In this document: positions 35,869 through 55,507 of the stretch, piece after piece
How the letters are laid out: every line of letters begins with the position of its first letter
Numbering within the stretch: the stretch's first letter is position 1
Assembly: GCA_028717885.1 (NCBI GenBank)
Contig: JAQUMX010000008.1
Location: 1 to 58,702 of the forward strand
Length of the DNA: 58,702 bases
Origin: Candidatus Omnitrophota bacterium
GTDB lineage: Bacteria > Omnitrophota > Gorgyraeia > Gygaellales > Profunditerraquicolaceae
Direction: 5' to 3'
Translations under genes and position numbers: made by a program
The notes under the pieces: model-generated
The model's database searches: none
Told to the model about the DNA's origin: nothing
What the model saw: only the letters and a program-made list of their open reading frames with translations

Positions 35869-37427
35869 TTTGCTTGTCCTGCTTTCTTTCTTCTGCCCCA
35901 GGCAATTTTTACTAATACGGCTAAAAGTAACAATATAGCAAATAGCCCTATACGCGTGCCAAGGATAAAAGGCTGGTTAGCCGCAGATACATTTTTCATA
36001 AAAATGATCGGCAGCCATTCCTGCCAGAGCCACATTCCCAGGATAAAAAATAAAAATAACGGCGTAATATATTTAATAATGAATTTATAAAATTTAGGCA
36101 CCCGCATATCCGCGCCTTTATGAATCTCGTCCCAAGCCTTCTCCATCCCGAATACCCAGGCAAAAAGGATAGTTTCGATAGTAGCGAATAAAACCAAAAA
36201 GAAAGTCCCACCCCAGAAATCCAACTCATCAACTACTCCCCGGCTTAAGAAGAAAACCGCCGGTTGGCAAAGGACAAAGGAAATAACCGCGAATATAGAA
36301 ACTGCTTTTTTACGGTTAATTTCAAATTCGTCTTCTAAAAACGCTACTGCCGGCTGGGCAAGAGAGACCGAAGAAGTAATTCCCGCAAGAAACAAAAGGA
36401 AAAACCAGCAAAAACCTAAAATCGGGGCTAAAGGTAATTTATTCAATACCAAAGGTGTTGTAACAAACCCTAAATTAAATACTCCGGAACGCGCAATTGA
36501 CTGAATATCTACCGGCCCAAAAAACACAAAGGCAGCCGGAATAACGATACTGCCGCCTAAAATTACTTCTGCTACTTCATTGGTACTGGCGGCAGTTAAA
36601 CCGGAAAGTACCACATCATCGCCCTTAGAAAGATAACTCGCGTAGGTTAAAATCACGCCTATCCCTACACTTAAAGTAAAAAATATTTGGCCTGCTGCTT
36701 CCAGCCAGACTTTAGCTGATTTTAAAGCCGAGAAATCCGGATTCCATAAAAACCCAAAACCATTGGCGATATTCCAGTCAGGCCTATTCGTGTCAGGCGC
36801 GCCTAAAGTCAATACCCTGATCAATAAAACCAGCCCGAAAACAAATAAAAGCGGCATTGCCCATTTGCAAAGCCGCTCAATCCCGCCTTTAATCCCGTAA
36901 TAAATTACCCAGGTATTCAGGATAAAAGTAACCAGGAAGAAAAAATAAGCCGGGGCAAAACTGCTAAAGAACTGGTTTTTTTCCAACCCCTGAAATCCGC
37001 TTAAAAAACTTTGCATGGTTTGCTGGTCGGCGATCTTGCCATACTTTCCGGCAATAGCGAAAAAACTGTAGGCTAACGTCCATGACTCTATATAGGTATA
37101 ATATATAAATATTACTAAGGGGCCAAATATGCCGATTACCCCAAAATATTTAATGAACCGGTTCTTTTGCCAGACGCTATGAAAAATCCCCGGGGCTGTC
37201 CCGTGTTCAAATCCTCCGCCATAACGGCCCAAGGTCCACTCTATCCACATCAGCGGTATCCCTAGTAAAAATAAAGAGATAAAATAAGGGATCATAAAGG
37301 CTCCGCCCCCGTTTGCCGCCGCCTTTGCCGGGAACCTCAAAAAATTACCCAGGCCGATGGCAGAACCGGCTACCGCCATAATTATCCCTAAGCGCGAACC
37401 CCAGCTATCCCTTTTCTTTTGCGCCAT
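35865..37427 (-). CDS. Sodium-dependent transporter, NSS/SNF family
   Basis: The 520-aa protein has about 12 membrane segments and the NSS start WGSRLGIIMAVAGSAIGLGN, then FLRFPAKAAANGGGAFMIPY. This is the Na+ and substrate-binding helix 1 seen in LeuT. IEWTLGRYGGGFEHGTAPG and a helix-6 region (AAGQIFFTLSVGIGVILTYA) are also typical. It likely imports an amino acid with Na+, which fits the Na+-coupled energetics suggested by the Mrp genes. It overlaps the hydrogenase protease gene by 23 nt at its start and the 34-aa gene by 4 nt at its end. Confidence 0.93.
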   Translation of the reverse strand: MAQKKRDSWGSRLGIIMAVAGSAIGLGNFLRFPAKAAANGGGAFMIPYFISLFLLGIPLMWIEWTLGRYGGGFEHGTAPGIFHSVWQKNRFIKYFGVIGIFGPLVIFIYYTYIESWTLAYSFFAIAGKYGKIADQQTMQSFLSGFQGLEKNQFFSSFAPAYFFFLVTFILNTWVIYYGIKGGIERLCKWAMPLLFVFGLVLLIRVLTLGAPDTNRPDWNIANGFGFLWNPDFSALKSAKVWLEAAGQIFFTLSVGIGVILTYASYLSKGDDVVLSGLTAASTNEVAEVILGGSIVIPAAFVFFGPVDIQSIARSGVFNLGFVTTPLVLNKLPLAPILGFCWFFLLFLAGITSSVSLAQPAVAFLEDEFEINRKKAVSIFAVISFVLCQPAVFFLSRGVVDELDFWGGTFFLVLFATIETILFAWVFGMEKAWDEIHKGADMRVPKFYKFIIKYITPLFLFFILGMWLWQEWLPIIFMKNVSAANQPFILGTRIGLFAILLLLAVLVKIAWGRRKKAGQAK

Positions 37428-37878
37428 TGAATAACCCTTCCAATTCTTCTAAAGTTTGAGCGATTTCAGGGCTGATTTTATCCCCGAAAGAAATTGACTT
37501 TGGCTGGACAATTAAAATAATTATATCCGCCTTGATATGGCTTTGCAAGTAATTTATCGTTAAGGATAGCGACGCATTATGCGTAGAATACAAATTTACC
37601 GTCTTAACTTCTTCCCCTTCCAGAATACGGTATTCACCGGGCTTGCCCCCAAAATCCGCAGCATCGATGATCACCACATTATCCGGGTTATCTCTGATGA
37701 TCTTTCCCAGGTAATTCTCCGGAGTGCTTGCGGCATCATAAACAATAAAGGGGGCTTTTCCTTGCAGGCGGATGGCGAGCAAAGAACCTAAAGCATCGTC
37801 GCTCTTCAGGCTATTGCCGATACCCAATATTACCACTCTACCCTTAAGGTGGGCTTTAAGATGTTCAAAAAATTCCAT
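37405..37878 (-). CDS. Hydrogenase maturation protease (HycI-like)
   Basis: The 157-aa protein has the family start VVILGIGNSLKSDDALGSLL, with the conserved Asp, and IIDAADFGGKPGEYRIL with the second metal-binding Asp. A later His (STHNASLSL) matches the HycI pattern. These proteases clip the C-terminus of [NiFe] hydrogenase large subunits after Ni insertion. The likely target is the large subunit encoded about 11.7 kb away at 49127-50323, which has about 40 residues after its last Cys motif. It starts 1 nt overlapping the upstream lipoprotein gene. Confidence 0.88.
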   Translation of the reverse strand: MEFFEHLKAHLKGRVVILGIGNSLKSDDALGSLLAIRLQGKAPFIVYDAASTPENYLGKIIRDNPDNVVIIDAADFGGKPGEYRILEGEEVKTVNLYSTHNASLSLTINYLQSHIKADIIILIVQPKSISFGDKISPEIAQTLEELEGLFNGAKEKG

Positions 37879-42368: not shown

Positions 42369-42986
42369 TTATGATTTTACTGCTGCTTCCCTGCGGCAGC
42401 GCGGGCAAAGGATCTTTATCCGGTCAGGCCTGCGCAATTCCAGGTCGTCTTTGCGCGCAGGCTCGTTTTTTAAAGCCAGGTCCAAAACCCTTAAATAAAA
42501 GAGGAATAGCGCCGGATTAGAAAACGACATGGGCCCGATTTTTTCCGCCACCCAAGCATACTGGTCAAAAGGCACAATCGTTTCTCCGCAGCAATCGCAA
42601 AGTGCCAATTCTTTTTCCACTTCATTAGACAACGCTTCCCGATTCTCTGTAGTTGAAAAATCGTATTCCTGGGAAAGGATGATCCCTTTGTCAGTAATGC
42701 AATTTGCCTGGCATTGCCCGCAGAATATACAAATATCCCAATGCACAACAAGTTTTCTTTTTCCCTTGCCGTTAATTACCGAATCTTCGTATTCAATTGC
42801 CTTTGCCGGACAGACCTGTGCGCAGGCAGTGCACCCTACACAGTCCTCTTCATGAAAATAAGGCCTGCCGCGGAACCGCTCAAAAGCCTTATGAGGCTTA
42901 CGCGGGTAATCGGAAGTATACGGCCCTTTAACCAGGGCCTTAACCGCCTCCCTTAATTCTCTTAATTTAGGATAGCGCATTCTCAT
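42369..42986 (-). CDS. NuoI/MbhN-like two-cluster ferredoxin subunit with extra Cys pairs
   Basis: The 205-aa protein has two [4Fe-4S] motifs, CVGCTACAQVCPAKAI near 49-64 and CIFCGQCQANCITDKG near 86-101. Two CxxC pairs follow, CDCCGE near 138 and LCPRCRRE near 195, which may form a zinc or rubredoxin-like site not found in ordinary NuoI. It would pass electrons to the hydrogenase small subunit. ATG at 42980 is an alternative start with a better-spaced GCGAGG. It is the last gene of the hydrogenase operon and overlaps mrpG by 20 nt. Confidence 0.88.
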   Translation of the reverse strand: MRMRYPKLRELREAVKALVKGPYTSDYPRKPHKAFERFRGRPYFHEEDCVGCTACAQVCPAKAIEYEDSVINGKGKRKLVVHWDICIFCGQCQANCITDKGIILSQEYDFSTTENREALSNEVEKELALCDCCGETIVPFDQYAWVAEKIGPMSFSNPALFLFYLRVLDLALKNEPARKDDLELRRPDRIKILCPRCRREAAVKS

Positions 42987-43302
42987 CCTCGCTGTATTTA
43001 TCGCAAACGGATTTTTCCCAAAGCTTCACCCCTGATTTATGGGCGCTTCTTGCCAGCACGTGCGCAGAAACCGGGGCAGTTAAAACCAAAAAGACGATAC
43101 AAAGCAAAGCTTTTATCCCGGTGGCAGAAATCCCTTTATATAAAAATAAACCGAAAAGAATGCTTGATGTGCCGAGGGTCACGCATTTTATCGAAGAGTG
43201 CAGCCGGTTATAAAGGTCAGGAAACCTTAAAAGCCCGAGGCAACCAAAGAAATCAAAGGCCAAGCCAATACCGATAAAAACATATCCGATTATTTCATTC
43301 AT
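42967..43302 (-). CDS. Mrp/Mnh antiporter subunit G (MbhC-like)
   Basis: The 111-aa protein has three membrane segments and the MnhG/PhaG pattern GIGLAFDFFGCLGLLRFPDL, YNRLHSSIKCVTLGTSSILF and ALLCIVFLVLTAPVSAHVLA. Together with E and F it forms the Mrp cation module. Its start overlaps the MrpF stop by 8 nt. Confidence 0.92.
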   Translation of the reverse strand: MNEIIGYVFIGIGLAFDFFGCLGLLRFPDLYNRLHSSIKCVTLGTSSILFGLFLYKGISATGIKALLCIVFLVLTAPVSAHVLARSAHKSGVKLWEKSVCDKYSEDENALS

Positions 43303-43654
43303 CGAAACGCCTTCCTTCCAGATATTTCCCTAAAGTGAGAATAGAAATAAAACTCTGCAGCGCCCAGGCAATCCCGATATCGATATACCAATCCCTGCCC
43401 GTAGGAATACCTAAAATCGCGCAAAAGCCGATGATCAGGATCCCTAAAATATCCAAAGCCACGGCACGGTCGGCAGCGGTTGGGCCGCGCAATATCCTCC
43501 ATAGCGAGAATGATGCGGAAATTATCAGGATAAAAAAAGCATGCTTTAAAAAATCCGATTGCCAGGACAATAAAGACGGTAAGGGGTAGAAAAATACCAA
43601 CGCGAAACTTACGCCCAATGCTATCAGACCCAAAAACCACCTTAATCTTCTCAT
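43295..43654 (-). CDS. Mrp/Mnh antiporter subunit F (MbhB-like)
   Basis: The 119-aa protein carries the MrpF signature WRILRGPTAADRAVALDILG in the first cytoplasmic loop. Four hydrophobic stretches are visible; the first (LGLIALGVSFALVFF) is an extra N-terminal helix compared with the usual 85-95-aa MrpF. The ATG overlaps the MrpE stop by 4 nt. Confidence 0.9.
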   Translation of the reverse strand: MRRLRWFLGLIALGVSFALVFFYPLPSLLSWQSDFLKHAFFILIISASFSLWRILRGPTAADRAVALDILGILIIGFCAILGIPTGRDWYIDIGIAWALQSFISILTLGKYLEGRRFDE

Positions 43655-44145
43655 GGGAAAATCCTCATCAATACGCGTTCGAATTTACGTACGATTAATT
43701 CGGTAGCCTTCTCCACATCCTGCGCTTTTACATCCGACCAATGGATATAAAGGAACCCGTTTTCCTTATCGATATCCACGGTCATAGTCCCCGGCTTTAA
43801 GGTTAGGGAATTTGCCAAGAAAGTTAAGCCTACCTCCGACTTTAACTGCGTCTTGACTTTCACTATCCCCGGGTTGATCGGCAGGTCAGGATGTATTACC
43901 CTCCAGGCTCCGTCGAGATTTGCCTTAAAACATTCCCAGGCAAAAAGAATAATGTAATAAACGAACCAGAGATAGCGGGAGGGCTTTTTAAAAACTTGCG
44001 GGCTCTCGAGGAAGATATCCGCAGTGACGAAACAAACCAAAACGGCAATCAGTACACCCAAGAACAAATGCACGGGGTCTACTGACCAGCTAAGCAGCAG
44101 CCAGAGTAAAAAAGCCAGAATAAAAATGATTATTTTTACCTTCAT
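43651..44145 (-). CDS. Mrp/Mnh antiporter subunit E (MbhA-like)
   Basis: The 164-aa protein has an N-terminal hydrophobic part (IIIFILAFLLWLLLSWSVDP) and the conserved C-terminal domain LTFLANSLTLKPGTMTVDID followed by FLYIHWSDV. This is standard for MrpE. It lies 4 nt after the MrpD-like gene. Confidence 0.92.
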   Translation of the reverse strand: MKVKIIIFILAFLLWLLLSWSVDPVHLFLGVLIAVLVCFVTADIFLESPQVFKKPSRYLWFVYYIILFAWECFKANLDGAWRVIHPDLPINPGIVKVKTQLKSEVGLTFLANSLTLKPGTMTVDIDKENGFLYIHWSDVKAQDVEKATELIVRKFERVLMRIFP

Positions 44146-44149
44146 CGCT

Positions 44150-45598
44150 TTAGCGCATTAACACATTTGCCGCTGCCTGTAAATAAATCCTTAATCCCGG
44201 AAGCAGTACGCCTCCGGCTATTAAAGAAATTATTGCCAGGGCCACCAGCGAAAACTTCATAGTAAAAGGCACTGCTTTAACTTCGGCGATAGCCGCATTA
44301 AGCGAGCCTAAAAAAACAGTATTATAAAATTTCAAGTAATATACCAATGTCACAACGCTTACCAGCACAGCTACCAACGCAAAATTAAAATATCCGGCCT
44401 GCACTGCCGCAATAATAATAATCAGCTTGCTCCAAAACCCGCCTAAAGGCGGGATCCCAGAAATACTCATCGAAGCGACCAGGCTGCTAACCGAGGCTAC
44501 GGGAAGTTTATCATTTAAGCCGCCAAGTCCCTTTAGGCTGCGGGTATCGGTAGCATATTCTATCGTCCCGGCATTCAAAAAAAGCAATGATTTCAAAACT
44601 GCGTGGTTAAATAAATGTAAAAGTGCCCCGAAAATTGCCAAGGGACTGGCAATGCCTAAAGCAAAAATAATATAGCCTACCTGGCTGATGCTAGAATATG
44701 CGAACATCCTTTTAATATCATTCTGCGCCACTGCCAAAAACGCGCCGATGGCCATGGAAAGGATTCCTAATATCATCAAAACATAAAACAATTGCGCTGA
44801 GATACCTATGATATTAAAGAAAACCCTGGCTAAAGCATAAACCCCCAGCGTCTTGATAAAAACTCCGGACAATACCGCGGAAACCGGGCTGGGCGCCGAG
44901 GAATGCGCATCAGGCAGCCAGGCATGAAAAGGAACTATTGCCGCTTTTAGCCCGAACCCTGCCAGGAATAAAACAGAGATAAAATTAATCAGTATTCCCC
45001 GCGGCTTAGCAGCCAGGCTCAAAGCAATATCCGCCATATTCAGAGTAGAGGTATGGCTATAAAGCAAAGCGATCCCTAAAAGAACAAAAATCGAAGCAAG
45101 CGCACCCATAATCGCATATTTGAAGGCCGCTTCCAAATCTTCGGCTTGTGTGCCAAAAGCAACCAAGGCATACCCGGAAATCGAGGCTACCTCGATAAAA
45201 ATATAAAGGTTGAATAAATCACCGCTTAAAATTACCCCGTTCATTCCGGTGAGCATCATTAAAAATAAAGCGTGGAATTTCCATTTTTCCGTATACCTGC
45301 GCATGTAACTGATAGCATAGATCATTGCCAGAAAAGCGACTAAATTTACGGTCAGAAGCATAAATGCGCTTAAGCCATCCATTACTAATGCGATGCCTAT
45401 CGGAGGCGCCCAGCCGGATATATTATAGGTAAGCACACCCTGAGCAGCTACTTGTTTTAAGGAAAAACAGGCAAGCAAAAGTAAAAATAGGGCGGCCGTA
45501 TTAGCCAGGATGTCGCTTAAGGCTTTGAACCGCCTGGCTAAAAGCACGATCAGAAAAACACATGCTAAAGGAACAATCACGAATAATGCCAAATTCAT
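44150..45598 (-). CDS. Mrp/Mnh antiporter subunit D-like (MbhH-like) proton/ion channel
   Basis: The 482-aa protein has about 14 membrane segments and the complex I antiporter-type core: SVLFLAGFGLKAAIVPFHAW and then LPDAHSSAPSPVSAVLSGVF, with the channel Lys and Glu positions of NuoL/M/N and MrpD. FAYSSISQVGYIIFALG is also conserved. It is one of two large antiporter subunits in this operon. The ATG overlaps the MrpC stop by 4 nt. Confidence 0.93.
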   Translation of the reverse strand: MNLALFVIVPLACVFLIVLLARRFKALSDILANTAALFLLLLACFSLKQVAAQGVLTYNISGWAPPIGIALVMDGLSAFMLLTVNLVAFLAMIYAISYMRRYTEKWKFHALFLMMLTGMNGVILSGDLFNLYIFIEVASISGYALVAFGTQAEDLEAAFKYAIMGALASIFVLLGIALLYSHTSTLNMADIALSLAAKPRGILINFISVLFLAGFGLKAAIVPFHAWLPDAHSSAPSPVSAVLSGVFIKTLGVYALARVFFNIIGISAQLFYVLMILGILSMAIGAFLAVAQNDIKRMFAYSSISQVGYIIFALGIASPLAIFGALLHLFNHAVLKSLLFLNAGTIEYATDTRSLKGLGGLNDKLPVASVSSLVASMSISGIPPLGGFWSKLIIIIAAVQAGYFNFALVAVLVSVVTLVYYLKFYNTVFLGSLNAAIAEVKAVPFTMKFSLVALAIISLIAGGVLLPGLRIYLQAAANVLMR

Positions 45599-45933
45599 CC
45601 TTTTAATCTCCGGATCTTGGTAATATCGAAGGTCCCGTACTTTTCATAAACGCGTAACGCTAAACTCACCACAGTTACCATTACTGCCAGCCCCACCACA
45701 ATCGTGGTTAAAACCATTGCCTGCGGTAAGGGGTCAACGGTATTTATGAGCTCCTGTTCCGAGATAAGTATGGGTGCGCGGCCTTGCGTGCGGTAACCAA
45801 GAAGAATAAAAAACAGGTTCAGGGAATATTCTATAATCCCTAAACCAATCACGATTTTAATGATATTACGCTTACGCACCAGGCAATATAACCCCACACA
45901 GAAAAGCATAAAACATAAGAAATAAAGGCTCAT
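45595..45933 (-). CDS. Mrp/Mnh antiporter subunit C (NuoK-like, MbhG-like)
   Basis: The 112-aa protein has three membrane helices. The NuoK/MrpC-type motif is IVIGLGIIEYSLNLFFILLG, and DPLPQAMVLTTIVVGLAVMV is the classic MrpC/NuoK stretch with a buried Glu in the second helix. It overlaps MrpB and MrpD by 4 nt at each end. Confidence 0.93.
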   Translation of the reverse strand: MSLYFLCFMLFCVGLYCLVRKRNIIKIVIGLGIIEYSLNLFFILLGYRTQGRAPILISEQELINTVDPLPQAMVLTTIVVGLAVMVTVVSLALRVYEKYGTFDITKIRRLKG

Positions 45934-46340
45934 TGTTTATTTCCTTTTGCGGATTCTTTGATAAATAATACCAGCGTTAAAAATACTACGAATAGCCCTG
46001 CCCCTACCATCGTAGCAATGGCAATATCGCTTAGGAGCACTCCGGTAAAATGGTTTTTTGTGACCAGCCTGGAAAGAGCAATCACTAAAAAAGCAATTGC
46101 CCCGCAACTCATTAAGCATACGCTGTTAATTTGGCTGATTTTCTTTAGCACGGCATCCCTTCCAAAGGCAAGCACCAGGTGAATCAGGGAAAGCGCCATT
46201 ACTACACCGCCGGCAAAACCTCCGCCCGGAGCGATATGGCTCTGTAAAACTATATAAAAACCGTAAATCAAAATCAGCCCCACGGTCAATCTGGTAATGG
46301 TTTTTACAATCAGGCTCATTCCTGAAGGGTTATTTGTCAT
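45930..46340 (-). CDS. Mrp/Mnh antiporter subunit B (MbhF-like)
   Basis: The 136-aa protein has four membrane helices and the MnhB domain motif LQSHIAPGGGFAGGVVMALS. The N-terminal VKTITRLTVGLILIYGFYIV fits as well. It overlaps the MbhDE-like gene by 11 nt. Confidence 0.93.
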   Translation of the reverse strand: MTNNPSGMSLIVKTITRLTVGLILIYGFYIVLQSHIAPGGGFAGGVVMALSLIHLVLAFGRDAVLKKISQINSVCLMSCGAIAFLVIALSRLVTKNHFTGVLLSDIAIATMVGAGLFVVFLTLVLFIKESAKGNKQ

Positions 46341-46851
46341 GAGCTTTTCCTGTCTTCCTGGTAATTGCTAAAACAGCTATCACTGCAGTAAAAAGCACGG
46401 AGGCTTCTGCTAAGGCGTCGAACCTTCTAAAATTTAAGGTAATCGCAGTCACGATATTAGCTAATCCGCCCTGCGTTAAGCTATTGGCCAGATATTCCCG
46501 AGAAACTAACATTGTCGGCTGGCCGAAATTCGGCAGCTCTTTAAGCGCGAAATAACCAAAGGTAAGAAAAATCCCGATAAAAAGCAAAGTGGAAACCGTA
46601 TTAAAAAGCCAACGGCCGTCCCTGACCAGGGGCAGGTCTTTTTTGATGGTAGCGCGGATTAAAACTATAACCAGCAAGATCTCTACCACCAGCTGTGTAA
46701 TCGCCAGGTTCGGGGCTTTTAAAACCAAAAATGCAAGGCATAACCCTAAGCCTACTGCGCTTAAAGCGATAACGCTGGAAATCAAATCCTTGATCTCCAC
46801 AGCCATAATGCTGGCGCAAATCATAAAAATTAAAATCAAATGTAGTTCCAT
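46330..46851 (-). CDS. MbhD/MbhE-like fused subunit (DUF4040 + MrpA C-terminal type)
   Basis: The 173-aa protein has about five membrane helices. The first half is DUF4040/MbhD (AVEIKDLISSVIALSAVGLG, then APNLAITQLVVEILLVIVLI). The second half matches MbhE / MrpA C-terminal (IVTAITLNFRRFDALAEASV, then LFTAVIAVLAI). In Pyrococcus Mbh these are two genes; here they are one, as at the MrpA C-terminus. Confidence 0.87.
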   Translation of the reverse strand: MELHLILIFMICASIMAVEIKDLISSVIALSAVGLGLCLAFLVLKAPNLAITQLVVEILLVIVLIRATIKKDLPLVRDGRWLFNTVSTLLFIGIFLTFGYFALKELPNFGQPTMLVSREYLANSLTQGGLANIVTAITLNFRRFDALAEASVLFTAVIAVLAITRKTGKAHDK

Positions 46852-46858
46852 GGACTAA

Positions 46859-48514
46859 TTACCCGATTAGAATCAAAAATAGCCCCATCATCCCTAAAAG
46901 GATCCAGACCAGGTATGTGGGCAAAACACCGTTATGTAAAAACTGTAAAACTTTAGAAATTTTGAAAATTTTCCTGGATTGCTCGTAAAGATCAAAAGTG
47001 CCTGCTTGCGCTTTTTGATAAACCTTCTTTAAGAAAGGCATCTCCTGGACCGTATTATAAAAGTCTGTTCCCGTCACCATTGCCTCCTGCCCTTGTTCTT
47101 CAAGTTCTCCGCCGGAAAAAGTAGAATCTTCGCGGATATTGGATTTAACCTTTCCTGACCTAAAAAGCAAAGCACCTGTGAGAAGGCCGATTAAAATCAA
47201 TATCGTTGCCAAAACCGGGGACCAGTGGCCAGGCAAACTTGCCGCGTTAAGCTGGGCATAAACACTTAACACGGGAAAAATAAAGTATTTTAACGGCAGG
47301 ACAAAAGCAAAGATGCCGAAGATAATACAGATGACCGCAAGCACCAGGCAAGGAGCAAGCATGGTAAAGGAAACTTCTTTGATCTCTTTTGATTTCAGGG
47401 TGTTTAAGCGCTGCCCTAAAAACACCGCATGCAATGTTTTCATAAAAGTAGCTAAGGTAAGCGCAGAACCGAACATTGCCGCAATCAGGCAAAAGATGCT
47501 AATAATTTTCATACTGTAATCCGCAAATTGAAGGTTTTGGATCAGCCCCTGATAGATGAGCCATTTGGAAACAAACCCGTTAAAAGGCGGGATCCCGGAA
47601 ATAGAAAGGCTGGCAACCAAAAACGAAAAAAAAGTAAACGGCATTAAACTGCTTAAGCCGCCTAACTGATCAAGTTCGGCAGTCTTTGTACGGTACTCTA
47701 CGTTTCCCGCACTAAAAAACAGGCAGGATTTGTAAACCGTATGGTTCAACATATGGAATAACCCGCCGGCGATACCGATAGGATTGCCGGTACCGATTCC
47801 TAAAACCATGTAGCCGACCTGCGATACCGTGGAATAACCGAGGAGTTTTTTTAAATTCTGCTGCACCAAAGCCATCATTACCGCGGCAATAATAGTAATT
47901 GCCCCGATTATCATAAGTACCATAGCAACTGCCTTGCTCATCACGAATAAATTCAAAGAAAGGCGGCTCAAAAGATAGATTCCCAACAACTTGTCTAACG
48001 CGGAAGGCAAAAAAGCAGTCACCGGAATAGGAGCACTCTTAGCGCAATCCGGCACCCAGGAATGATATGGCATTGCTCCGGCCTTGGCAAAACAAGCGCT
48101 GGCAATACAAAAATAAGCCAGAATCAACGGCTCCTGGTTTAATTCCAGCCTGATTTTATCCAGCTGCATGGTCTGGGTAAAATAATAAATGATGCCGATA
48201 CCGAAAATCATCAGCGCATCTGTGCCGCCGACGATAACCAGGGATTTTTTCGCTGCTTGCGGAGCATCGCTGTCTCCCATATTGATCAAAAGATAAAGCA
48301 ATAACCCTAAAAACCCCCAGCAAACCAAAAGCACAACCAGGTTATTGGTAAGCACAACCCCTAAAGAAGCAAGCGCGGATAAAACTATATAGAAGTAATA
48401 AAGCACTAAATGCTTCCTACCTTTCATGAACTTCAAAGAATAGGAAATAGCCAGAATAAAGAATAACCCGATTGCACCGGCAATAAATGAATTTAAGGCA
48501 TCTAATTTAAACAT
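46859..48514 (-). CDS. NuoL/MrpA-like large antiporter subunit
   Basis: The 551-aa protein has about 14 membrane segments. FAKAGAMPYHSWVPDCAKSA and PIPVTAFLPSALDKLLGIYL hold the channel-type Lys/His region, and LLGYSTVSQVGYMVLGIGTG and LFHMLNHTVYKSCLFFSAGN are conserved in NuoL/MrpA/HyfB. A C-terminal amphipathic extension (EEQGQEAMVTGTDFYNTVQE) resembles the lateral arm region of NuoL. Having both this and the MrpD-like subunit suggests two ion channels. It overlaps the PhoU-like gene by 8 nt. Confidence 0.9.
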   Translation of the reverse strand: MFKLDALNSFIAGAIGLFFILAISYSLKFMKGRKHLVLYYFYIVLSALASLGVVLTNNLVVLLVCWGFLGLLLYLLINMGDSDAPQAAKKSLVIVGGTDALMIFGIGIIYYFTQTMQLDKIRLELNQEPLILAYFCIASACFAKAGAMPYHSWVPDCAKSAPIPVTAFLPSALDKLLGIYLLSRLSLNLFVMSKAVAMVLMIIGAITIIAAVMMALVQQNLKKLLGYSTVSQVGYMVLGIGTGNPIGIAGGLFHMLNHTVYKSCLFFSAGNVEYRTKTAELDQLGGLSSLMPFTFFSFLVASLSISGIPPFNGFVSKWLIYQGLIQNLQFADYSMKIISIFCLIAAMFGSALTLATFMKTLHAVFLGQRLNTLKSKEIKEVSFTMLAPCLVLAVICIIFGIFAFVLPLKYFIFPVLSVYAQLNAASLPGHWSPVLATILILIGLLTGALLFRSGKVKSNIREDSTFSGGELEEQGQEAMVTGTDFYNTVQEMPFLKKVYQKAQAGTFDLYEQSRKIFKISKVLQFLHNGVLPTYLVWILLGMMGLFLILIG

Positions 48515-49130
48515 TTTTTATCTTTAATAGCCCCTTAGCGATCTTCTTTATGTGGTAATAAATCGCCGCGGTAAAATCCAACATATTCAAAAACATATTA
48601 CACCCCATGGGAGTACAGACTTTGTCGATCATGCGCTGAGTATGGCGCCTGCGGTATTCATCCACCAGGCTATCGATATGTTCTTCGTGTTTTAAAACAG
48701 CTTTAACACTGGAAGGCAAATTTTTTTCCAAAGCGCTTGCTACTTCTTTCATAGATTTTTCGGCAAGCGCGTATAAATTATTATATTCTTTTACCCCGTC
48801 TTCGCTAAAAAGCAGCTTTTCTTCGATTTTTATCTCCACGCGCTCTAAAATGTCCTTACAATAGTCGCCGATCATTTCCAGGTCGCCGACCACATCCGTA
48901 AGGATGGCAACTTTATTGCGTTCTTCCTTCTTGGCGCAACCGTGCCCAAATTCTACCAGGCTAGAAGTAATGCTCTTTTCCATATCATTGAGCTTGGTTT
49001 CTTCTTCTAAGGCAGTGGTAATCAGGTCGCGGTCATGCTCCATAAAAGCTGCGTGGGTAGTTTCCAACATTTTTAAGGCTACCTGGGACATTGCGGAAAT
49101 TTCCTGCTGAATGGACTGGAGGTCTTTCAT
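48507..49130 (-). CDS. PhoU-domain protein embedded in the hydrogenase operon
   Basis: The 207-aa all-helical protein matches the PhoU domain. SQVALKMLETTHAAFMEHDR, LNDMEKSITSSLVEFGHG and LTDVVGDLEMIGDYCKDILE (ExxxD-type metal-binding helix) lie in the first half, and a second, weaker repeat (YALAEKSMKEVASALEKNLP) follows. PhoU proteins normally regulate phosphate uptake; here no pst genes are near. Its ATG overlaps the stop of the hydrogenase large subunit (ATGA) and its end overlaps the NuoL-like gene, so it is made with the complex and may regulate or help assemble it. That role is inference. Confidence 0.85.
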   Translation of the reverse strand: MKDLQSIQQEISAMSQVALKMLETTHAAFMEHDRDLITTALEEETKLNDMEKSITSSLVEFGHGCAKKEERNKVAILTDVVGDLEMIGDYCKDILERVEIKIEEKLLFSEDGVKEYNNLYALAEKSMKEVASALEKNLPSSVKAVLKHEEHIDSLVDEYRRRHTQRMIDKVCTPMGCNMFLNMLDFTAAIYYHIKKIAKGLLKIKNV

Positions 49131-50323
49131 TGTTTCATCTCCTCCTTTATTTTGTTGGTCTTCGCTTGGGACATTTTAATCAAATCCCAACCATTCATAA
49201 TTTTCCTGTTATCCGGCTTATTAATCACTGCTACCCTCTCTGTACAACAATAACAAGGGTCTACCGCCGCCAAGGTAATCGTAGCGTCGGAAATCGTGCC
49301 ACCCACGGCACCGACCTTATCCGAAGCCACATTCATAAAACTGGGGGCGCGTACCTTTAACCTTACCGGCCGGTTTGTGCCGTCGGTTTTGATATAATGG
49401 AAACATTCCCCTCTCGGCGCTTCTACCCTGCCAATTCCTTCCCCTGCCGGGATATCTGCTACCTTTGCATCAATCTCTCCCTGCGGCATCTTATCCAGGC
49501 ATTGCCTAATCATGCGCACTGATTCATACATTTCCAGGATACGCACAATCGTCTTGGCATAAACATCGCCGTCTTTTTCGATAATTACTTTCCAATCCAG
49601 CCTATCCACTGCTCCGTACGGCTCATCCCTTCTTACATCTATATTTACGCCGGATGCGCGCGCAGTCGGGCCAACCACACACCAATCAATACATTGCTGC
49701 TTAGTAAGGATACCTACGTTTTTAAGCCTGGCCTGAATCACCGGGTCATCCATTACCGCTCCGCGGAATAAATCTAATGCCGGGACTAATTCATCGAGAG
49801 CTTTTTTTAATACCGGCACATCCTCATCCTTAATATCGCGCCTGACTCCGCCTACTTTAAACATCGCGTAGTTATTGCGGTTACCGGTAATCATTTCGAA
49901 CATATCCAAGACCGGCTCGCGGTATTTCCATGCCCACATCCAAACCGTGTTGTAGCCGATAAAATGGCCGGCTAGCCCCAGCCATAATAAATGGCTATGG
50001 ATCCTTTGTAACTCGTCGATAATCGTGCGGATGTAAAGTGCGCGTTCAGGCACAACCGCTTTTTCCCCGCCTAAAATATCTTCTACCGCCAAAACATATG
50101 TATAAGGATGGCTGGAAGAACAGATCCCGCAGATACGTTCTACTAAGAAGGGAATCTGATCGAGATGTTTAGTCTCTGCCAATTGTTCAATGCCTCTATG
50201 GCTATAGCCGATAATAATATCTATATCTACGACCTTTTCACCCTCGACGTGCAGCTGGAATAGTTCCGGCTCTTCCAATAACGGGTGGTACGGCCCAATA
50301 GGAACAATTACATTATGCGACAT
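49127..50323 (-). CDS. Group 4 [NiFe] hydrogenase large subunit (EchE/MbhL-like)
   Basis: I start this 398-aa protein at MSHNVIVPIGPYHPLLEEPE (50323), 1 nt after the NuoC-like gene. Both Ni-Fe ligand pairs are present: ERICGICSSSHPY (C65, C68) and DPCYCCTERVAV near 360 (CxxC). This distinguishes a true hydrogenase from NuoD. About 35-40 residues follow the last Cys pair and could be clipped by the HycI-like protease at 37405. It would carry out proton reduction to H2 or the reverse. The CYCC spelling of the second motif, with an extra Cys, is unusual. Confidence 0.94.
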   Translation of the reverse strand: MSHNVIVPIGPYHPLLEEPELFQLHVEGEKVVDIDIIIGYSHRGIEQLAETKHLDQIPFLVERICGICSSSHPYTYVLAVEDILGGEKAVVPERALYIRTIIDELQRIHSHLLWLGLAGHFIGYNTVWMWAWKYREPVLDMFEMITGNRNNYAMFKVGGVRRDIKDEDVPVLKKALDELVPALDLFRGAVMDDPVIQARLKNVGILTKQQCIDWCVVGPTARASGVNIDVRRDEPYGAVDRLDWKVIIEKDGDVYAKTIVRILEMYESVRMIRQCLDKMPQGEIDAKVADIPAGEGIGRVEAPRGECFHYIKTDGTNRPVRLKVRAPSFMNVASDKVGAVGGTISDATITLAAVDPCYCCTERVAVINKPDNRKIMNGWDLIKMSQAKTNKIKEEMKQ

Positions 50324-50324
50324 A

Positions 50325-50756
50325 TTAACCTTCCTTATGCCTGAGCGGGAAATTTCCTTCCGGCCAATCATCCGCCAACAACAGGCGCTTTAAATTAGGA
50401 TGCCCAATAAACTTAATCCCCAGCATCTCCCAGATTTCGCGCTCGATCCATTCTGCGCCGGGAAAAAGCGTGGCGATAGAATCGATTTGCGGATTTTTTT
50501 TATCATCCAGGAAAACCCGCGCCGAATAAATCTCTCCGGCCTTATCGTAACTAAAATGATAAAGAATCTCAAAGCCTTGCGGGGTATGGGTAGCGCTGGC
50601 GATCACAAATCTTAAACCCAAATCCTTGAAAATAATCCGGGTAATTGCGACGATATCTTCTTTTTTTACCGTAAAATATACCCGGCGGGGAAATTTTTCC
50701 TGCCAATCAAGGATCCTGCTTCCCAGGCTTTCTTTAATATTATCTCTGATATTCAT
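50325..50756 (-). CDS. NuoC/EchD/MbhK-like subunit
   Basis: The 143-aa protein has the 30-kDa subunit features: IATLFPGAEWIEREIWEMLG, then KFIGHPNLKRLLLADDWPEG and NFPLRHKEG at the C-terminus. This is a structural subunit that contacts the large subunit. It lies 1 nt after the small-subunit gene. Confidence 0.92.
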   Translation of the reverse strand: MNIRDNIKESLGSRILDWQEKFPRRVYFTVKKEDIVAITRIIFKDLGLRFVIASATHTPQGFEILYHFSYDKAGEIYSARVFLDDKKNPQIDSIATLFPGAEWIEREIWEMLGIKFIGHPNLKRLLLADDWPEGNFPLRHKEG

Positions 50757-50757
50757 T

Positions 50758-51183
50758 TTATTTATTGCCCCTTACTTTATTCACTAATTTCACGATACCG
50801 TCTATCATTGCCTCCGGACGCGGAGGGCAGCCGGGAATGTATAAATCAACAGGAAGAATCTTGTCCAGCGGCTCACAAACATTATAGCTGTAACGGAACA
50901 TATGCCGCGAAAGCGCACACTGCCCGACGGCAATTACCACGCAGGGCTTAGGCGCTTGCGCATAAATCTTTTTCATCCTGGGAACCGATTTACGGTTCAT
51001 AGCACCTGTAATCAACAACGCATCTGCATGCCGCACAGAACCGACCAATTGAATGCCAAAACGCTCCAAGTCAAAACGCGGGGTAAGGCAATCCAAAATT
51101 TCGATATCGCAGTTATTGCAGGAGCCGCAGCTGACATGAAAAACCCAAATCGATTTTAGCAATGCTTTTGTCTTTAGGTCCAT
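50758..51183 (-). CDS. [NiFe] hydrogenase small subunit (NuoB/EchC/MbhJ-like)
   Basis: The 141-aa protein has Cys ligands for one proximal [4Fe-4S] cluster: SCGSCNNCDIEILDCLTP, AVGQCALSRHMF and IPGCPPRPEAMIDGIVKLV. It is short, as in group 4 hydrogenases, and lacks the extra clusters of group 1 small subunits. It lies 1 nt upstream of the NuoC-like gene. Confidence 0.94.
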   Translation of the reverse strand: MDLKTKALLKSIWVFHVSCGSCNNCDIEILDCLTPRFDLERFGIQLVGSVRHADALLITGAMNRKSVPRMKKIYAQAPKPCVVIAVGQCALSRHMFRYSYNVCEPLDKILPVDLYIPGCPPRPEAMIDGIVKLVNKVRGNK

Positions 51184-51184
51184 T

Positions 51185-52096
51185 TTATAGCCCTAATAGC
51201 GCCAAAATAAGCGCCAATCCCGCAATTGCCGTTACCGGCCCCCAGAAAAAACGCACTGCCTGGTCGATACGCAAGCGCGGGTTAGTATTTTTAATCAAAA
51301 TAAAAACCACGAGGATAATAATATATTTTGCCAGCGAAAAAATTGGCGAAATGTCTTTCCCTAAAAAGAATAAGATTAACAACACAGGCATTGTATAAAG
51401 AAGGATTGCCTTTGTCAATTTAAAGGCTGCTAAAGCTGACCCTGAATATTCGATCACCGTGCCTGCCATAATCTCCTGTTCCGCCTCTGCGACTTCAAAA
51501 GGGGCTAGCCCTAACTTTGCCTGGCAGCAAAGAAGCGCAGCGATAAAAGCAAGCGCTCCGGAAAAAGAAAAAAACAGAGAATTGAAATTCATCTGGAATG
51601 CAAGGATATCTCCTAAGCGGATTCCTCCGTGCGTTTTCACAATTACCGTAGCGATAGACAAAACAAAAGGCAATTCATAACCTAAGACCAGCTTCATTTC
51701 GCGCGCAGCCCCTACGGAAGCCAAAGGGTTACGCGAGCTTGACGCTCCGATAATTGCGCAAATCGCCGGGATAACCAAAAGATAAACCACGACGATTAAA
51801 TCCCCGGTAAAACTTTGCTGCGGGGTAAAAAGTGCCAGCCCCAAAATAGTAGCTGCCAATACCAGGCTAAAAAGCCCTAAGTAAGGCGCTAAGAGAAAAG
51901 TAGCCCTTGCTTGCTTAGGGATAATCGTTTCTTTTCCGGAAAGCTTGATTAAATCGAGAAAATTTTGATACCAGGGAGGCCCTACCCTCCACTGGATGCG
52001 CGCGGTGACTTTGCGTTCCACCCAGGAACTCAAAAGCCCGGCCACAGCGCTAAACAGGAAACCCGGAAAAATAAGGTAATAAAACAATGCTTTCAT
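51185..52096 (-). CDS. NuoH/EchB/MbhM-like membrane anchor subunit
   Basis: I start this 303-aa protein at MKALFYYLIFPGFLFSAVAG (52096); the longer frame overlaps the ferredoxin gene without homology. It has about eight membrane helices, and WVERKVTARIQWRVGPPWYQ and FEVAEAEQEIMAGTVIEYSG are the NuoH-family signatures. Four charged residues in the second motif form part of the ion pathway. It links the peripheral hydrogenase to the antiporter arm. Confidence 0.94.
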   Translation of the reverse strand: MKALFYYLIFPGFLFSAVAGLLSSWVERKVTARIQWRVGPPWYQNFLDLIKLSGKETIIPKQARATFLLAPYLGLFSLVLAATILGLALFTPQQSFTGDLIVVVYLLVIPAICAIIGASSSRNPLASVGAAREMKLVLGYELPFVLSIATVIVKTHGGIRLGDILAFQMNFNSLFFSFSGALAFIAALLCCQAKLGLAPFEVAEAEQEIMAGTVIEYSGSALAAFKLTKAILLYTMPVLLILFFLGKDISPIFSLAKYIIILVVFILIKNTNPRLRIDQAVRFFWGPVTAIAGLALILALLGL

Positions 52097-52100
52097 ATTC

Positions 52101-52598
52101 TTACTTCTTCTTTGGCGGCTGGATATCTTCCCGCGACCATTTACGCGTATGCACCGCCAGGTAATCACCGATGAAATAAATATTTGCCTCTAAATTTTCT
52201 TCTACTTCTTTGACTTCTATGGCTTTCTTTGGGCAGCTCACTACGCATTTAGGAAGCTTGCCTTGCGTTGCACCCAGGCAAAAATCGCAACGCGAATCCA
52301 GGTATTCGATAAAATCCTGGAAGATTATCCCAAAAGGGCAGGCTACCGAACAGGATTTACAGCTGGTGCAAAGCATTTTTTTGCGCTTAATGTGCCCGTC
52401 GCTGGCACGCTCCAAAGCGCAATGATAGCAGGAATTAACACAAGGCGCCTGTTCGCAATGGCGGCAGATTGTAGCAAAGGTGGCGTATTCGCGTAAGGAT
52501 GTAACGCCATTATTCTGCGGATGATAAAAATAATCGCAGGCTGCAATGCATTCTTCGCAATTATTGCAAATGTCCAGGTCGACAAACAAACGCTTCAT
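52101..52598 (-). CDS. Four-cluster ferredoxin (HycB/CooF type)
   Basis: The 165-aa protein contains four Cys groups: CNNCEECIAACDYF, CRHCEQAPCVNSCYHCALE, CTSCKSCSVACPFGII and CDFCLGATQGKLPKCVVSC. This matches the electron-transfer subunits of formate hydrogenlyase and CO-linked hydrogenases. Lying between the NAD(P)H module and the hydrogenase core, it is the probable wire between them. Confidence 0.93.
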   Translation of the reverse strand: MKRLFVDLDICNNCEECIAACDYFYHPQNNGVTSLREYATFATICRHCEQAPCVNSCYHCALERASDGHIKRKKMLCTSCKSCSVACPFGIIFQDFIEYLDSRCDFCLGATQGKLPKCVVSCPKKAIEVKEVEENLEANIYFIGDYLAVHTRKWSREDIQPPKKK

Positions 52599-52604
52599 TT
52601 ATTT

Positions 52605-53420
52605 TTAGTCCCAGATATCGTTTATGCCCTGTAATTGGGCATAAGTAAAAACCGGGCCGTCCTTACAGGTGTAATATTTCCCCAGCCGGCAATGCCCGCA
52701 TTTCCCTAATCCGCAGGACATATTTTTTTCCATCGATAAATAAATATCTTTCGGGTCAAACCCCAAATCCAGCAATTTCAAATTCACGAATTTCATCATA
52801 ATCGGCGGGCCGCAGACAATCGCCACCGCATTCTTCACATCAACCGGCAAATCATTCAAAACGGTAGTAATCAGGCCGACATTTCCCTGCCAATCGGGGC
52901 TGCCCACATCCACGGTGGTCATGATATCAACTTTGTTTAACTTGGCCCATTCAGGAATAGCCTGTTTATAGACAATATCAGCCGGGCTTCTTGCTCCGTA
53001 ACGCAACACCACCTTGTTATATTTATCGATTTGCGCAAAAAGGCTAAAAAGTAAAGAACGTAAAGGCGCTAAACCAACGCCGCCTCCGATAATCAAGACG
53101 TCTTTACCGAAAAATTTCTCTAAAGGATACCCCTTGCCATACGGCCCGCGTATCCCTAAGGAGATATTCTTCTGCGCACTGTGCAATAAAGAAGTCACCC
53201 TTCCGGCTTTCATAACCGTGACATCGATTTTCTCTTTGACGTTCGGGTCGGAAGAAGGAGTAAATGGCGCTTCCCCGATCCCAGGGATACTCAATTCGAT
53301 AAACTGACCGGCGCGGAAAGAAAAATCTTCTTTGGACCGGATCACAAAAGTCTTGATATTTGAGGTCTCGGTAATAATTTCTTCCAATATGCCTTCTATC
53401 GGCCGGTAGATATTTTTCAT
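52605..53420 (-). CDS. FAD/NAD(P)H-binding reductase subunit (HydG/AsrB-like)
   Basis: I start this 271-aa protein at MKNIYRPIEGILEEIITETS (53420), which overlaps the upstream stop by 4 nt. It has the ferredoxin-reductase FAD motif FRAGQFIELSIPG, the NAD(P) motif VLIIGGGVGLAPLRSLLFSL and a C-terminal [2Fe-2S] site (MSCGLGKCGHCRLG plus YYTCKDGPVF). The family includes the sulfhydrogenase gamma subunit and anaerobic sulfite reductase B. It would exchange electrons with NAD(P)H. Confidence 0.92.
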   Translation of the reverse strand: MKNIYRPIEGILEEIITETSNIKTFVIRSKEDFSFRAGQFIELSIPGIGEAPFTPSSDPNVKEKIDVTVMKAGRVTSLLHSAQKNISLGIRGPYGKGYPLEKFFGKDVLIIGGGVGLAPLRSLLFSLFAQIDKYNKVVLRYGARSPADIVYKQAIPEWAKLNKVDIMTTVDVGSPDWQGNVGLITTVLNDLPVDVKNAVAIVCGPPIMMKFVNLKLLDLGFDPKDIYLSMEKNMSCGLGKCGHCRLGKYYTCKDGPVFTYAQLQGINDIWD

Positions 53421-54502
53421 GTTTTTTCTTTGGTTTCTTCGGCTAAACTTTTGAGCACTTCGCGGATGTCGATTTTTCCGGGGCAGACTTCGATACACCT
53501 GCCGCAGCCGCAACAGGCCGGAATTCCAAGGTTACTGACGAAGAAGTCGAATTTTTTCGTAAACCTGAATCTCAACCTCTGTGCGCGCAATTTGTTAGGG
53601 TTAGCTCCGCCGGCAACCCGCGCATAATTGGCATAAAGGCAAGCATCCCAAAGCCTTAATTTAGCGTTTTGCCCGCCTGCCGGCAGCCCAGGCTGGTTTT
53701 GCTTTTTTTCTTCCAAGAGAAAACAATGGCAGGTATCACAGATAAAATTACAACCGCCGCATTCCACACAAGTAAGCATAAATTCTTTCCAGGTCTTGGC
53801 ATTATAGCCCTGTTGTACCAGTTTTTGCACACTGTCTTTAGTAACTAAATTTTGCGGCAGTAAATGCCGTTTTAGCCTATCTACCAGGCTCTCGCGTTTT
53901 GCGCGCCGGCCGGCAATCTGCGCATCGCGTATGGGAACAAAAAGGCTTTTATGCTGGGCAATCAATTCTTCGCCTTTTCTGGAACCCACCTCTGCTACAA
54001 ACCCCTCATTTAAAGGCGAAAGGTTAAGGTCAAAACCCCAGGTCGGGTACGGCAAGATTTCCCAGGCCAAACAATGGCAGACTTGTTTAAAATCAATGCA
54101 ATCACCGGAAATAATCAGCGTATGCTCTCTTTTCGCCCGGTATAAAGCATCGACTTCTACTCCTTCCAGGAAAACAAAATCCTGGATTTTATGCCCGGCA
54201 ATGTCGCAGCTTTTCACGCCAAAAACAACTGTTTCCTGCGGAATATCGACCACATTTTTTTCGGCCGAGAAATAATCTGCAACTTTTTCATGTGGATAAG
54301 TAAAAAATGATTTTAGAGGTTCGACTGCGCGATAGGGGTTGAAATCAAGCGTGGAACTTAAGGAAAACTTCTTATAGGAAAAATCCGCTTCGCAGGTAAA
54401 ATTCGCCCTTTTTTCCACCGGCGCGAATACGCGATGGGTTTTGGTTAAATCCTGTGCCAGCTGATTCAGCTTGGAACTCTCGATAAAATAAATGCTGTAC
54501 AT
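53417..54502 (-). CDS. Fe-S subunit of sulfhydrogenase-beta / AsrA type
   Basis: The 361-aa protein has an N-terminal domain with VVFGVKSCDIAGHKIQDFVF typical of HydB/AsrA. Two [4Fe-4S] motifs follow: CVECGGCNFICDTCHCFLL near 243-261 and ACCGCGRCIEVCPGKIDI near 328-345. It partners the reductase subunit downstream. It is the first structural gene of the hydrogenase set and begins 1 nt overlapping the release-factor-like gene. Confidence 0.92.
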   Translation of the reverse strand: MYSIYFIESSKLNQLAQDLTKTHRVFAPVEKRANFTCEADFSYKKFSLSSTLDFNPYRAVEPLKSFFTYPHEKVADYFSAEKNVVDIPQETVVFGVKSCDIAGHKIQDFVFLEGVEVDALYRAKREHTLIISGDCIDFKQVCHCLAWEILPYPTWGFDLNLSPLNEGFVAEVGSRKGEELIAQHKSLFVPIRDAQIAGRRAKRESLVDRLKRHLLPQNLVTKDSVQKLVQQGYNAKTWKEFMLTCVECGGCNFICDTCHCFLLEEKKQNQPGLPAGGQNAKLRLWDACLYANYARVAGGANPNKLRAQRLRFRFTKKFDFFVSNLGIPACCGCGRCIEVCPGKIDIREVLKSLAEETKEKT

Positions 54503-54867
54503 TAATCCGCTTCCTGGACCTTTCGGCGTAAATTCTTTTTTTGGGAATGTTTACGTTTTTCTTCCAGGATCTTTACTTTTAGATACTGCGGCTTCTTACG
54601 TTTCTGCCGCCTGATTTTTTCTTTTTCCTGCACTGCCTGCGCTATCTGCCTGCGCCTTAGGCTTAAGACTTTTTCGCGCAGCAATCTCCAGGCTAAAATA
54701 CGGTTCTGCGCCTGGGAACGCTCCTGCTGGCACTTAACCTCTATTCCCGTAGGAACATGCTTCAGGTAAACGCAGGTTGAGGTTTTATTTACCTTTTGCC
54801 CTCCCGGGCCTTGCGAACGGATAAACTTTTCGACTACATCCTCTAGCCTCAACAACGCTTCATCCAT
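54502..54867 (-). CDS. Peptide chain release factor-like protein (GGQ domain only)
   Basis: The 121-aa protein has only the catalytic RF domain: FIRSQGPGGQKVNKTSTCVY carries the GGQ that triggers peptidyl-tRNA hydrolysis. VPTGIEVKCQQERSQAQNRI and a basic tail (RRQKRKKPQYLKVKILEEKR) follow. It lacks codon-recognition domains, so it resembles ArfB/YaeJ or the mtRF-R/C12orf65 group that rescues stalled ribosomes. It sits between rex and the hydrogenase genes in one operon, with 7 nt and 1-nt overlap spacing; the link may be only positional. Confidence 0.88.
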   Translation of the reverse strand: MDEALLRLEDVVEKFIRSQGPGGQKVNKTSTCVYLKHVPTGIEVKCQQERSQAQNRILAWRLLREKVLSLRRRQIAQAVQEKEKIRRQKRKKPQYLKVKILEEKRKHSQKKNLRRKVQEAD

Positions 54868-54874
54868 AGGAAAA

Positions 54875-55507
54875 TCATTTTACTTTAGTTTTATCCAGCA
54901 CATTCACAAAGTAAATCAAATTTTCCAGCTCGTGCTCAAGGTTCACGTAATTCACTACGCAATCATCCGGAGACTTGATTCTCGTCGGAGCAAAATTCAA
55001 AATCCCTTTTATCCCGGCTTCGAACAAAAGGTCCGCCACTTGTTGCGCCGCCACATCCGGCACAGCGATGATAGCGATCCTGATTTGGTTCTCTTTAACG
55101 ACTGTTTTTAGTTCCTCAAGCGGCAGGATGGGAATTTCGTTATTCTTTTTGAATTTGGAGGGGTCGATGTCAAAAGCGGCAGTAAGCCTGATCCCTTCTT
55201 TTTCAAATCCCTTATATTTCATTAATGCCGAAGCAATATTGCCGGCTCCTACGATAATTACTTTCTGGATCTTATCTTTCCCGAGGATATATTGAAGTTT
55301 TTCCAGCAGGTTATCGATTTGATAACCGCCTTTCTTGTTGCCGGAAATACCAAAGAGCGAAAAATCTTTTCTTACTTGCGAAGCAGTGCAGCCTACGGCG
55401 TCGGCCAGATTATCGGAGAATACCTTGACAAACCCTAAGGATTGCAGGCGATTGAGTGCATTTTTGTACCGGGAAAGCCGGATAATGGAATTTCGATTTG
55501 CCACCAT
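54875..55507 (-). CDS. rex: Redox-sensing transcriptional repressor Rex
   Basis: The 210-aa protein has the winged-helix part (RLSRYKNALNRLQSLGFVKV and then CTASQVRKDFSLFGISGNKK) and a Rossmann domain (VIIVGAGNIASALMKYKGFE, then IIAVPDVAAQQVADLLFEAG, FAPTRIKSP and NYVNLEHELENLIYFV). Rex leaves DNA when NADH/NAD+ is high. Two Rex-type operators flank its promoter, giving self-control and control of the downstream hydrogenase genes, which follow without a terminator. Confidence 0.97.
   Translation of the reverse strand: MVANRNSIIRLSRYKNALNRLQSLGFVKVFSDNLADAVGCTASQVRKDFSLFGISGNKKGGYQIDNLLEKLQYILGKDKIQKVIIVGAGNIASALMKYKGFEKEGIRLTAAFDIDPSKFKKNNEIPILPLEELKTVVKENQIRIAIIAVPDVAAQQVADLLFEAGIKGILNFAPTRIKSPDDCVVNYVNLEHELENLIYFVNVLDKTKVK

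Follow-up and report, generated by a model that had tools for sequence, protein, structure and literature searches.

A group 4 [NiFe] hydrogenase operon with a putative sulfhydrogenase-type NAD(P)H module and a PhoU-type gene in Omnitrophota and other bacteria

Described relatives and the layout of the operon

Several described complexes share parts with the operon analysed here. Mbh of P. furiosus (6cfw) shares with it the NuoB/C/D/H/I-like core, MbhDE and the MrpB-G arm, and is the best solved match for both NuoD and MrpD; to our knowledge AsrAB, a HycB-like protein, a second NuoL-like subunit and PhoU are all missing from Mbh. Mbh (group 4d) is defined by ferredoxin as the sole donor and by the lack of an NAD(P)H module, and AsrAB, CooF, NuoL and PhoU are additional in the present operon. 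The Mrp-type arm of the P. furiosus MBS/MBX complexes (6u8y) contains, as in this operon, two large subunits of antiporter type, but we know of no Ni ligands in these complexes, whereas the NuoD described here keeps its ligands. E. coli formate hydrogenlyase (7z0s) likewise feeds electrons to a group 4 hydrogenase through proteins of the HycB and HycF type. It has a formate dehydrogenase where the operon has the putative NAD(P)H module, and we are aware of no MrpB-G arm in it; no formate dehydrogenase is found among the genes of the operon. Finally, the beta and gamma subunits (AsrAB/HydBG) of P. furiosus soluble hydrogenase I, or sulfhydrogenase I (SHI, 9nez), are homologous to AsrA and AsrB; the large and small subunits of SHI are soluble and of group 3b.

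A hydrogenase that combines asrAB, cooF and Mrp-like subunits is already known from one genome. The main text of Matheus Carnevali et al. 2019 (PMC6349859) reports that Saganbacteria (WOR-1) RX5A encodes cooF, asrA and asrB together with Mrp-like subunits as parts of a group 4 NiFe hydrogenase, and gives Zixibacteria and Omnitrophica as the nearest sequences; complexes related to hydrogenases, of the MBS/MBX kind, are also covered there. The RX5A region has in addition a molybdopterin oxidoreductase, which the run described here does not have, and that main text makes no mention of PhoU, which this run does have. Mrp-linked hydrogenases of Omnitrophota and Cloacimonadota have been assigned to HydDB group 4g and treated as ferredoxin-coupled Mbh (PMC8542988), the 4g label being used here as a literature assignment for the Omnitrophota enzymes only; HydDB lists group 4g as of undetermined function (PMC5037454). 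These enzymes come from the same phylum and are likewise group 4 and Mrp-linked, and the passages of PMC8542988 consulted mention no AsrAB module. New here are the phylogenetic breadth of the arrangement, its link with Rex and an apparently dedicated PhoU subunit.

The window covers positions 1 to 58,702 of a contig of a Candidatus Omnitrophota bacterium (GCA_028717885.1, JAQUMX010000008.1), in which gene families were assigned by HMM searches. From position 54502 to 42369 the minus strand carries 17 contiguous co-directional genes, most of which overlap or sit within 7 nt of each other, in the order AsrA, AsrB, CooF/HycB, NuoH, NuoB, NuoC, NuoD, PhoU, NuoL, MbhDE, MrpB-MrpG, NuoI (Table 1). 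An uninterrupted 17-gene run had been recognised in a prior sequence-only reading, and all 17 open reading frames are indeed present on the same strand. The families named in that reading all fit the HMMs; the eighth gene, with its PhoU domain, had been left unnamed. The NuoH start is most likely the ATG at 52096, not 52168. The co-directional run extends upstream past asrA, through an arfB-like gene, to rex as its first gene. Hydrogenase maturation genes are present, the HycI-type protease gene in the window and HypD elsewhere in the genome (contig C1).

Table 1. Features of the operon and its surroundings in the window
Feature	Position	Strand	Evidence
Rex-operator-like palindrome TTGTGAAAAAAATCGCAA	55573..55590	-	2 mismatches to TTGTGAANNNNTTCACAA
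Second Rex-operator-like site TTGTGAAAAAAAGAACAA	55509..55526	-	3 mismatches; immediately before rex start codon
rex, NADH/NAD+-sensing repressor	54875..55507	-	NF003996 243 bits (cut-off 138)
RF-1 domain protein (ArfB/PrfB-like peptide release factor)	54502..54867	-	PF00472 2.4e-25; between rex and asrA
AsrA/HydB/ShyB-like [4Fe-4S] protein	53417..54502	-	NF040829 1.2e-49; PDB 9nez_B SHI beta 1.9e-35; conserved Cys sets
AsrB/HydG/ShyC-like FAD, NAD(P), [2Fe-2S] protein	52605..53420	-	TIGR02911 3.8e-64; PDB 9nez_C SHI gamma 6.8e-52
CooF/HycB-like four-cluster ferredoxin	52101..52598	-	best PDB HycB 7z0s_B and HDCR HycB4/3
NuoH/MbhM-like membrane anchor	51185..52096	-	PF00146 2.4e-59
NuoB/MbhJ-like small subunit	50758..51183	-	NF005012 over cut-off
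NuoC/MbhK-like subunit	50325..50756	-	PF00329 2.6e-27
NuoD/MbhL-like large subunit	49127..50371	-	HMM; Ni ligands RICGIC and DPCYCC, C-terminal tail beyond last ligand
PhoU-fold protein	48507..49130	-	PF01895 5.6e-16; AF2 pLDDT 92; PDB 4q25 TM 0.90
NuoL/MbsH'-like antiporter subunit	46859..48514	-	PF00361 3.4e-57; 6u8y_X alignment reaches residue 539
MbhD-MbhE fusion	46330..46851	-	PF13244, PF20501
MrpB/MbhF	45930..46340	-	PF04039
MrpC/MbhG	45595..45933	-	PF00420
MrpD/MbhH antiporter subunit	44150..45598	-	PF00361 2.3e-69; 6cfw_H 9.9e-75
MrpE/MbhA	43651..44145	-	PF01899
MrpF/MbhB	43295..43654	-	PF04066
MrpG/MbhC	42967..43302	-	PF03334
NuoI/HycF-like subunit, two [4Fe-4S] and four conserved C-terminal Cys	42369..42986	-	HycF 7z0s_F best PDB match outside polyferredoxins
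HycI-type hydrogenase maturation protease	37405..37878	-	TIGR00072 over cut-off; ~4.5 kb downstream of operon

Hydrogenase core and putative NAD(P)H module

Both Ni-ligand motifs of NuoD are intact, with RICGIC toward the N-terminus and DPCYCC toward the C-terminus, and these give the two CxxC ligand pairs of a [NiFe] group 4 hydrogenase. RICGIC or RVCGIC, paired with DPCYCC or DPCYSC, is kept in nearly all NuoD homologues (n = 101); one entry is without the first motif because its contig begins late. Retention of the ligands in essentially all homologues suggests that hydrogenase activity is under selection. The best solved relative is the large subunit of P. furiosus Mbh (6cfw_L, 2.5e-87), with HycE and NuoD ranking behind. 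With its ligands intact and Mbh as the top solved match, the large subunit is thus of the hydrogenase type and not complex I-like, as had been read from the sequence.

In AsrB, the residues that make up the FAD, NAD and [2Fe-2S] sites are invariant or near-invariant among homologues. AsrA and AsrB are closest to the beta and gamma subunits of SHI, in agreement with the earlier description of a putative NAD(P)H-reactive Fe-S/FAD pair. Homology supports AsrB as the predicted NAD(P)H entry site and AsrA as the inner part of the module, and the CooF/HycB-like protein would link AsrA to NuoI. An electron-confurcating hydrogenase, which would use reduced ferredoxin and NAD(P)H jointly, had also been suggested, and there are two possible electron entry routes within the one operon. 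However the run has SHI-type single-FAD machinery only; no flavin subunit resembling NfnL or HydB/NuoF is annotated among its genes, and no bifurcating flavin module of a known kind, as expected of an electron-bifurcating hydrogenase, is recognised. Confurcation is therefore most improbable here.

The genome, which is 88% complete, was scanned for partners of AsrAB. No match over cut-off to AsrC was found in it, and a reading of the genes as an AsrABC sulfite reductase was rejected. Nor was a [NiFe] large subunit outside group 4 found; the only large subunits are three group-4-like ones, with none of the group 3b sulfhydrogenase kind among them. It should be noted that one group-4-like large subunit (C15) has no CxxC ligand pair, and that another (C24), with both Cys ligand pairs present, is a second group 4 hydrogenase.

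Conservation, the PhoU-type protein and Rex-like sites

Loci were collected from Omnitrophota, Elusimicrobia, WOR-3/Stahlbacteria, Mcinerneyibacterium, Bacteroidales/Bacteroidetes, Planctomycetota and Acetothermia (a phylum set plus named genomes), and the layout is shared by several bacterial phyla. The upstream synteny count was restricted to loci with at least 4.5 kb of sequence upstream of NuoD (n = 67). AsrA, AsrB, CooF, NuoH and NuoB are all present in 66 of these, the Acetothermia locus being the sole exception. Two outcomes had been named beforehand as speaking against the sequence-only reading, a large subunit grouping with complex I-like proteins and an AsrAB pair out of synteny in relatives, and neither was seen. 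An apparent loss of AsrAB in locus L047 is an artefact, as the region upstream of NuoH is one huge open frame that fits masked N, and this locus was excluded from the count. In WOR-3 loci AsrB and CooF are separated by a short gene resembling molybdopterin oxidoreductase, which the run in the window lacks.

Pairwise distances of AsrA, AsrB, CooF and NuoI correlate with those of NuoD (0.84, 0.90, 0.88 and 0.90, respectively), and the values are lower for MrpD (0.66) and MrpE (0.61); such parallel divergence is expected in part from co-inherited operon genes. These data bear on the possibility that AsrAB is an independent enzyme, part of a sulfite reductase or a group 3b hydrogenase, that merely shares the operon. 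The family names do derive from sulfite reductase and sulfhydrogenase, and locus L111 carries a second AsrA/B pair, located separately. Against this stand the near-complete synteny and strong parallel divergence with NuoD, together with the missing AsrC and non-group-4 large subunit in the genome, and we consider such independence very unlikely.

Where enough downstream sequence is available, the complete NuoL-MbhDE-MrpB-G-NuoI set is found in 47 of 54 loci, and in 6 of the 54 most of the Mrp arm is missing. The earlier reading had thus put too much weight on the Mrp arm as something that defines the system, since several otherwise similar operons are without MrpB-G. The putative NAD(P)H module, AsrA-AsrB-CooF, varies less from locus to locus than this arm. 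The second large channel had been noted as missing from Mbh; next to Mbh it is unusual, yet MBS offers a precedent (6u8y chains H and X). The NuoL-like subunit is ~65 N-terminal residues shorter than family models. A tie between PhoU and this truncated N-terminus was rejected, as PhoU-negative operons have equally short NuoL.

The eighth gene product has the PhoU-family fold, both by family match and by its AF2 model. No Pst gene of the phosphate system is found in the run. Across 270 genomes, stand-alone PhoU homologues of ~200 residues lie nearly all inside the hydrogenase operon, where they either follow NuoD immediately or separate MrpG from NuoI; two on other contigs, when checked, also proved to stand between MrpG and NuoI. 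One weak exception (G206) has no recognised operon genes beside it. PhoU proteins at both positions share a common invariant signature. Next in similarity come the C-terminal domains of larger, Na/Pi-cotransporter-like proteins, and two of these that were inspected display the repeated QSSSATT-type motifs of Na/Pi cotransporters. The placement and common signature thus point to a dedicated subunit or regulator of the ion-translocating arm, in which the PhoU-type protein probably serves as a subunit for regulation or assembly. In the literature searched, no precedent linking PhoU with hydrogenase, Mrp or NiFe was seen, the matches being unrelated by title and abstract.

With the Rex-operator consensus TTGTGAANNNNTTCACAA taken from PMC6391272, sites with no more than 1 mismatch precede asrA in 12 of 64 operons, versus 15 of the 4974 tiles into which all loci were cut, those 12 included; the majority of operons have no site at this threshold. 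As judged from these sites, expression of the operon is probably under Rex (NADH/NAD+) control. Rex of Caldicellulosiruptor bescii also binds upstream of NiFe (ech) hydrogenase genes (PMC6391272), and the sites therefore favour redox control and not a given identity of the donor.

Possible function

From gene context and homology we infer that the products form a single physical complex. The explanation that we moderately favour is an energy-converting [NiFe] group 4 hydrogenase with a SHI-type NAD(P)H dehydrogenase module as its electron input. The likeness of AsrA and AsrB to SHI beta and gamma, and of CooF and NuoI to HycB and HycF of formate hydrogenlyase, suggests an electron path. Electrons from NAD(P)H would enter the FAD and [2Fe-2S] of AsrB, pass to the [4Fe-4S] clusters of AsrA, and from there through the four-cluster CooF/HycB-like protein, NuoI/HycF and NuoB to the NiFe site of NuoD, with Na+ or H+ moved by NuoH, NuoL and the Mrp arm. 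The complex would thus work as a formate hydrogenlyase in which a SHI-type NAD(P)H module takes the place of the formate dehydrogenase. As a reversible NAD(P)H:H+ oxidoreductase it would let reductant leave as H2, at the expense of the ion gradient where the H2 potential makes this necessary, and in the reverse direction H2 would reduce NAD(P)+. An extra entry for ferredoxin may exist at CooF/NuoI.

Further points count against this explanation. NADH (~ -320 mV) cannot drive H2 evolution together with pumping under standard conditions, and H2 metabolism could be the task of the C24 hydrogenase, which might draw on the NAD(P)H module as well. Only when H2 is scarce does electron transfer from NAD(P)H to H+ come near equilibrium, and the membrane arm may accordingly either cover the cost of H2 evolution or profit from H2 oxidation.

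A ferredoxin-dependent pump of the Mbh type should also be considered, in which AsrAB-CooF would be a ferredoxin:NAD(P)+ branch (Rnf- or Mbx-like), while H2 would be a by-product or serve as an alternative acceptor. CooF and NuoI belong to a kind of protein that typically accepts electrons from ferredoxin; the genome encodes POR, a source of reduced ferredoxin, and RnfC was not found in it at 88% completeness. However the operon and Rnf occur independently among 270 genomes (56/77 versus 137/193, p = 0.88), and the Ni ligands are retained throughout the homologues; we regard such a pump as rather unlikely. A general role of the operon as an Rnf replacement across the phylum was rejected on the same lack of association.

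The NAD(P)H-fed hydrogenase may, more tentatively, represent a widespread type of respiratory enzyme, an NAD(P)H:H2 oxidoreductase that translocates ions and whose Na+/H+ arm would be controlled or assembled by a dedicated PhoU-type subunit related to the regulatory domain of Na+/phosphate cotransporters. The operon points to such a partner as one without precedent in the literature searched, and it illustrates the exchange of input modules on a shared group 4 framework. A testable assignment thereby becomes available for a large clade within Omnitrophota and its relatives: an ion-coupled hydrogenase, fed by NAD(P)H, which could use an ion gradient to release H2 from NADH, or run in reverse.

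Large subunit and operon variants

The second Ni-ligand motif of the NuoD-like large subunit (49127-50371) carries an additional conserved cysteine, DPC-Y-C-C, which is kept in nearly all homologues of its clade. The homologous operons L036, L037, L065, L071, L072 and L091 have lost MbhDE along with the larger part of the Mrp arm, and the genes from AsrAB to NuoL are retained together with NuoI (AsrAB were sampled in only part of these loci). The WOR-3 operons L101, L117 and L121 have a shortened molybdopterin-oxidoreductase-like gene inserted between AsrB and CooF.

Other genes of the window

As read from the sequence, the N-terminal start of the 9540-10448 protein, ILGAGASVDFGYP, resembles a putative SIR2-type domain, and the 38323-40329 protein appears to combine putative cyclic-nucleotide-binding, MinD-like and patatin-like parts.

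Features in the window and on other contigs of the same genome (G000)
Feature	Location	Position
ArfB/RF-1-like peptide release factor gene	54502-54867	between rex and asrA
Second group 4 hydrogenase cluster	G000:C24 (L033:4504-14238)
NuoC-NuoD fusion	G000:C15 (L003:798-2372)

Related gene sets on other contigs

The hydrogenase cluster of contig C24 displays the first Cys ligand pair as RICGIC and the second as DPCFSC, and has a HycI-like gene of its own; it is devoid of AsrAB, CooF and MrpB/E/F/G genes. A long membrane protein found nearby looks like a candidate membrane pyrophosphatase.

The fusion gene of contig C15 is missing the CxxC ligand pairs at both ends, and is adjoined by MrpD-like and NuoB-like genes. 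This gene set is a hydrogenase-related (Ehr-type) complex.
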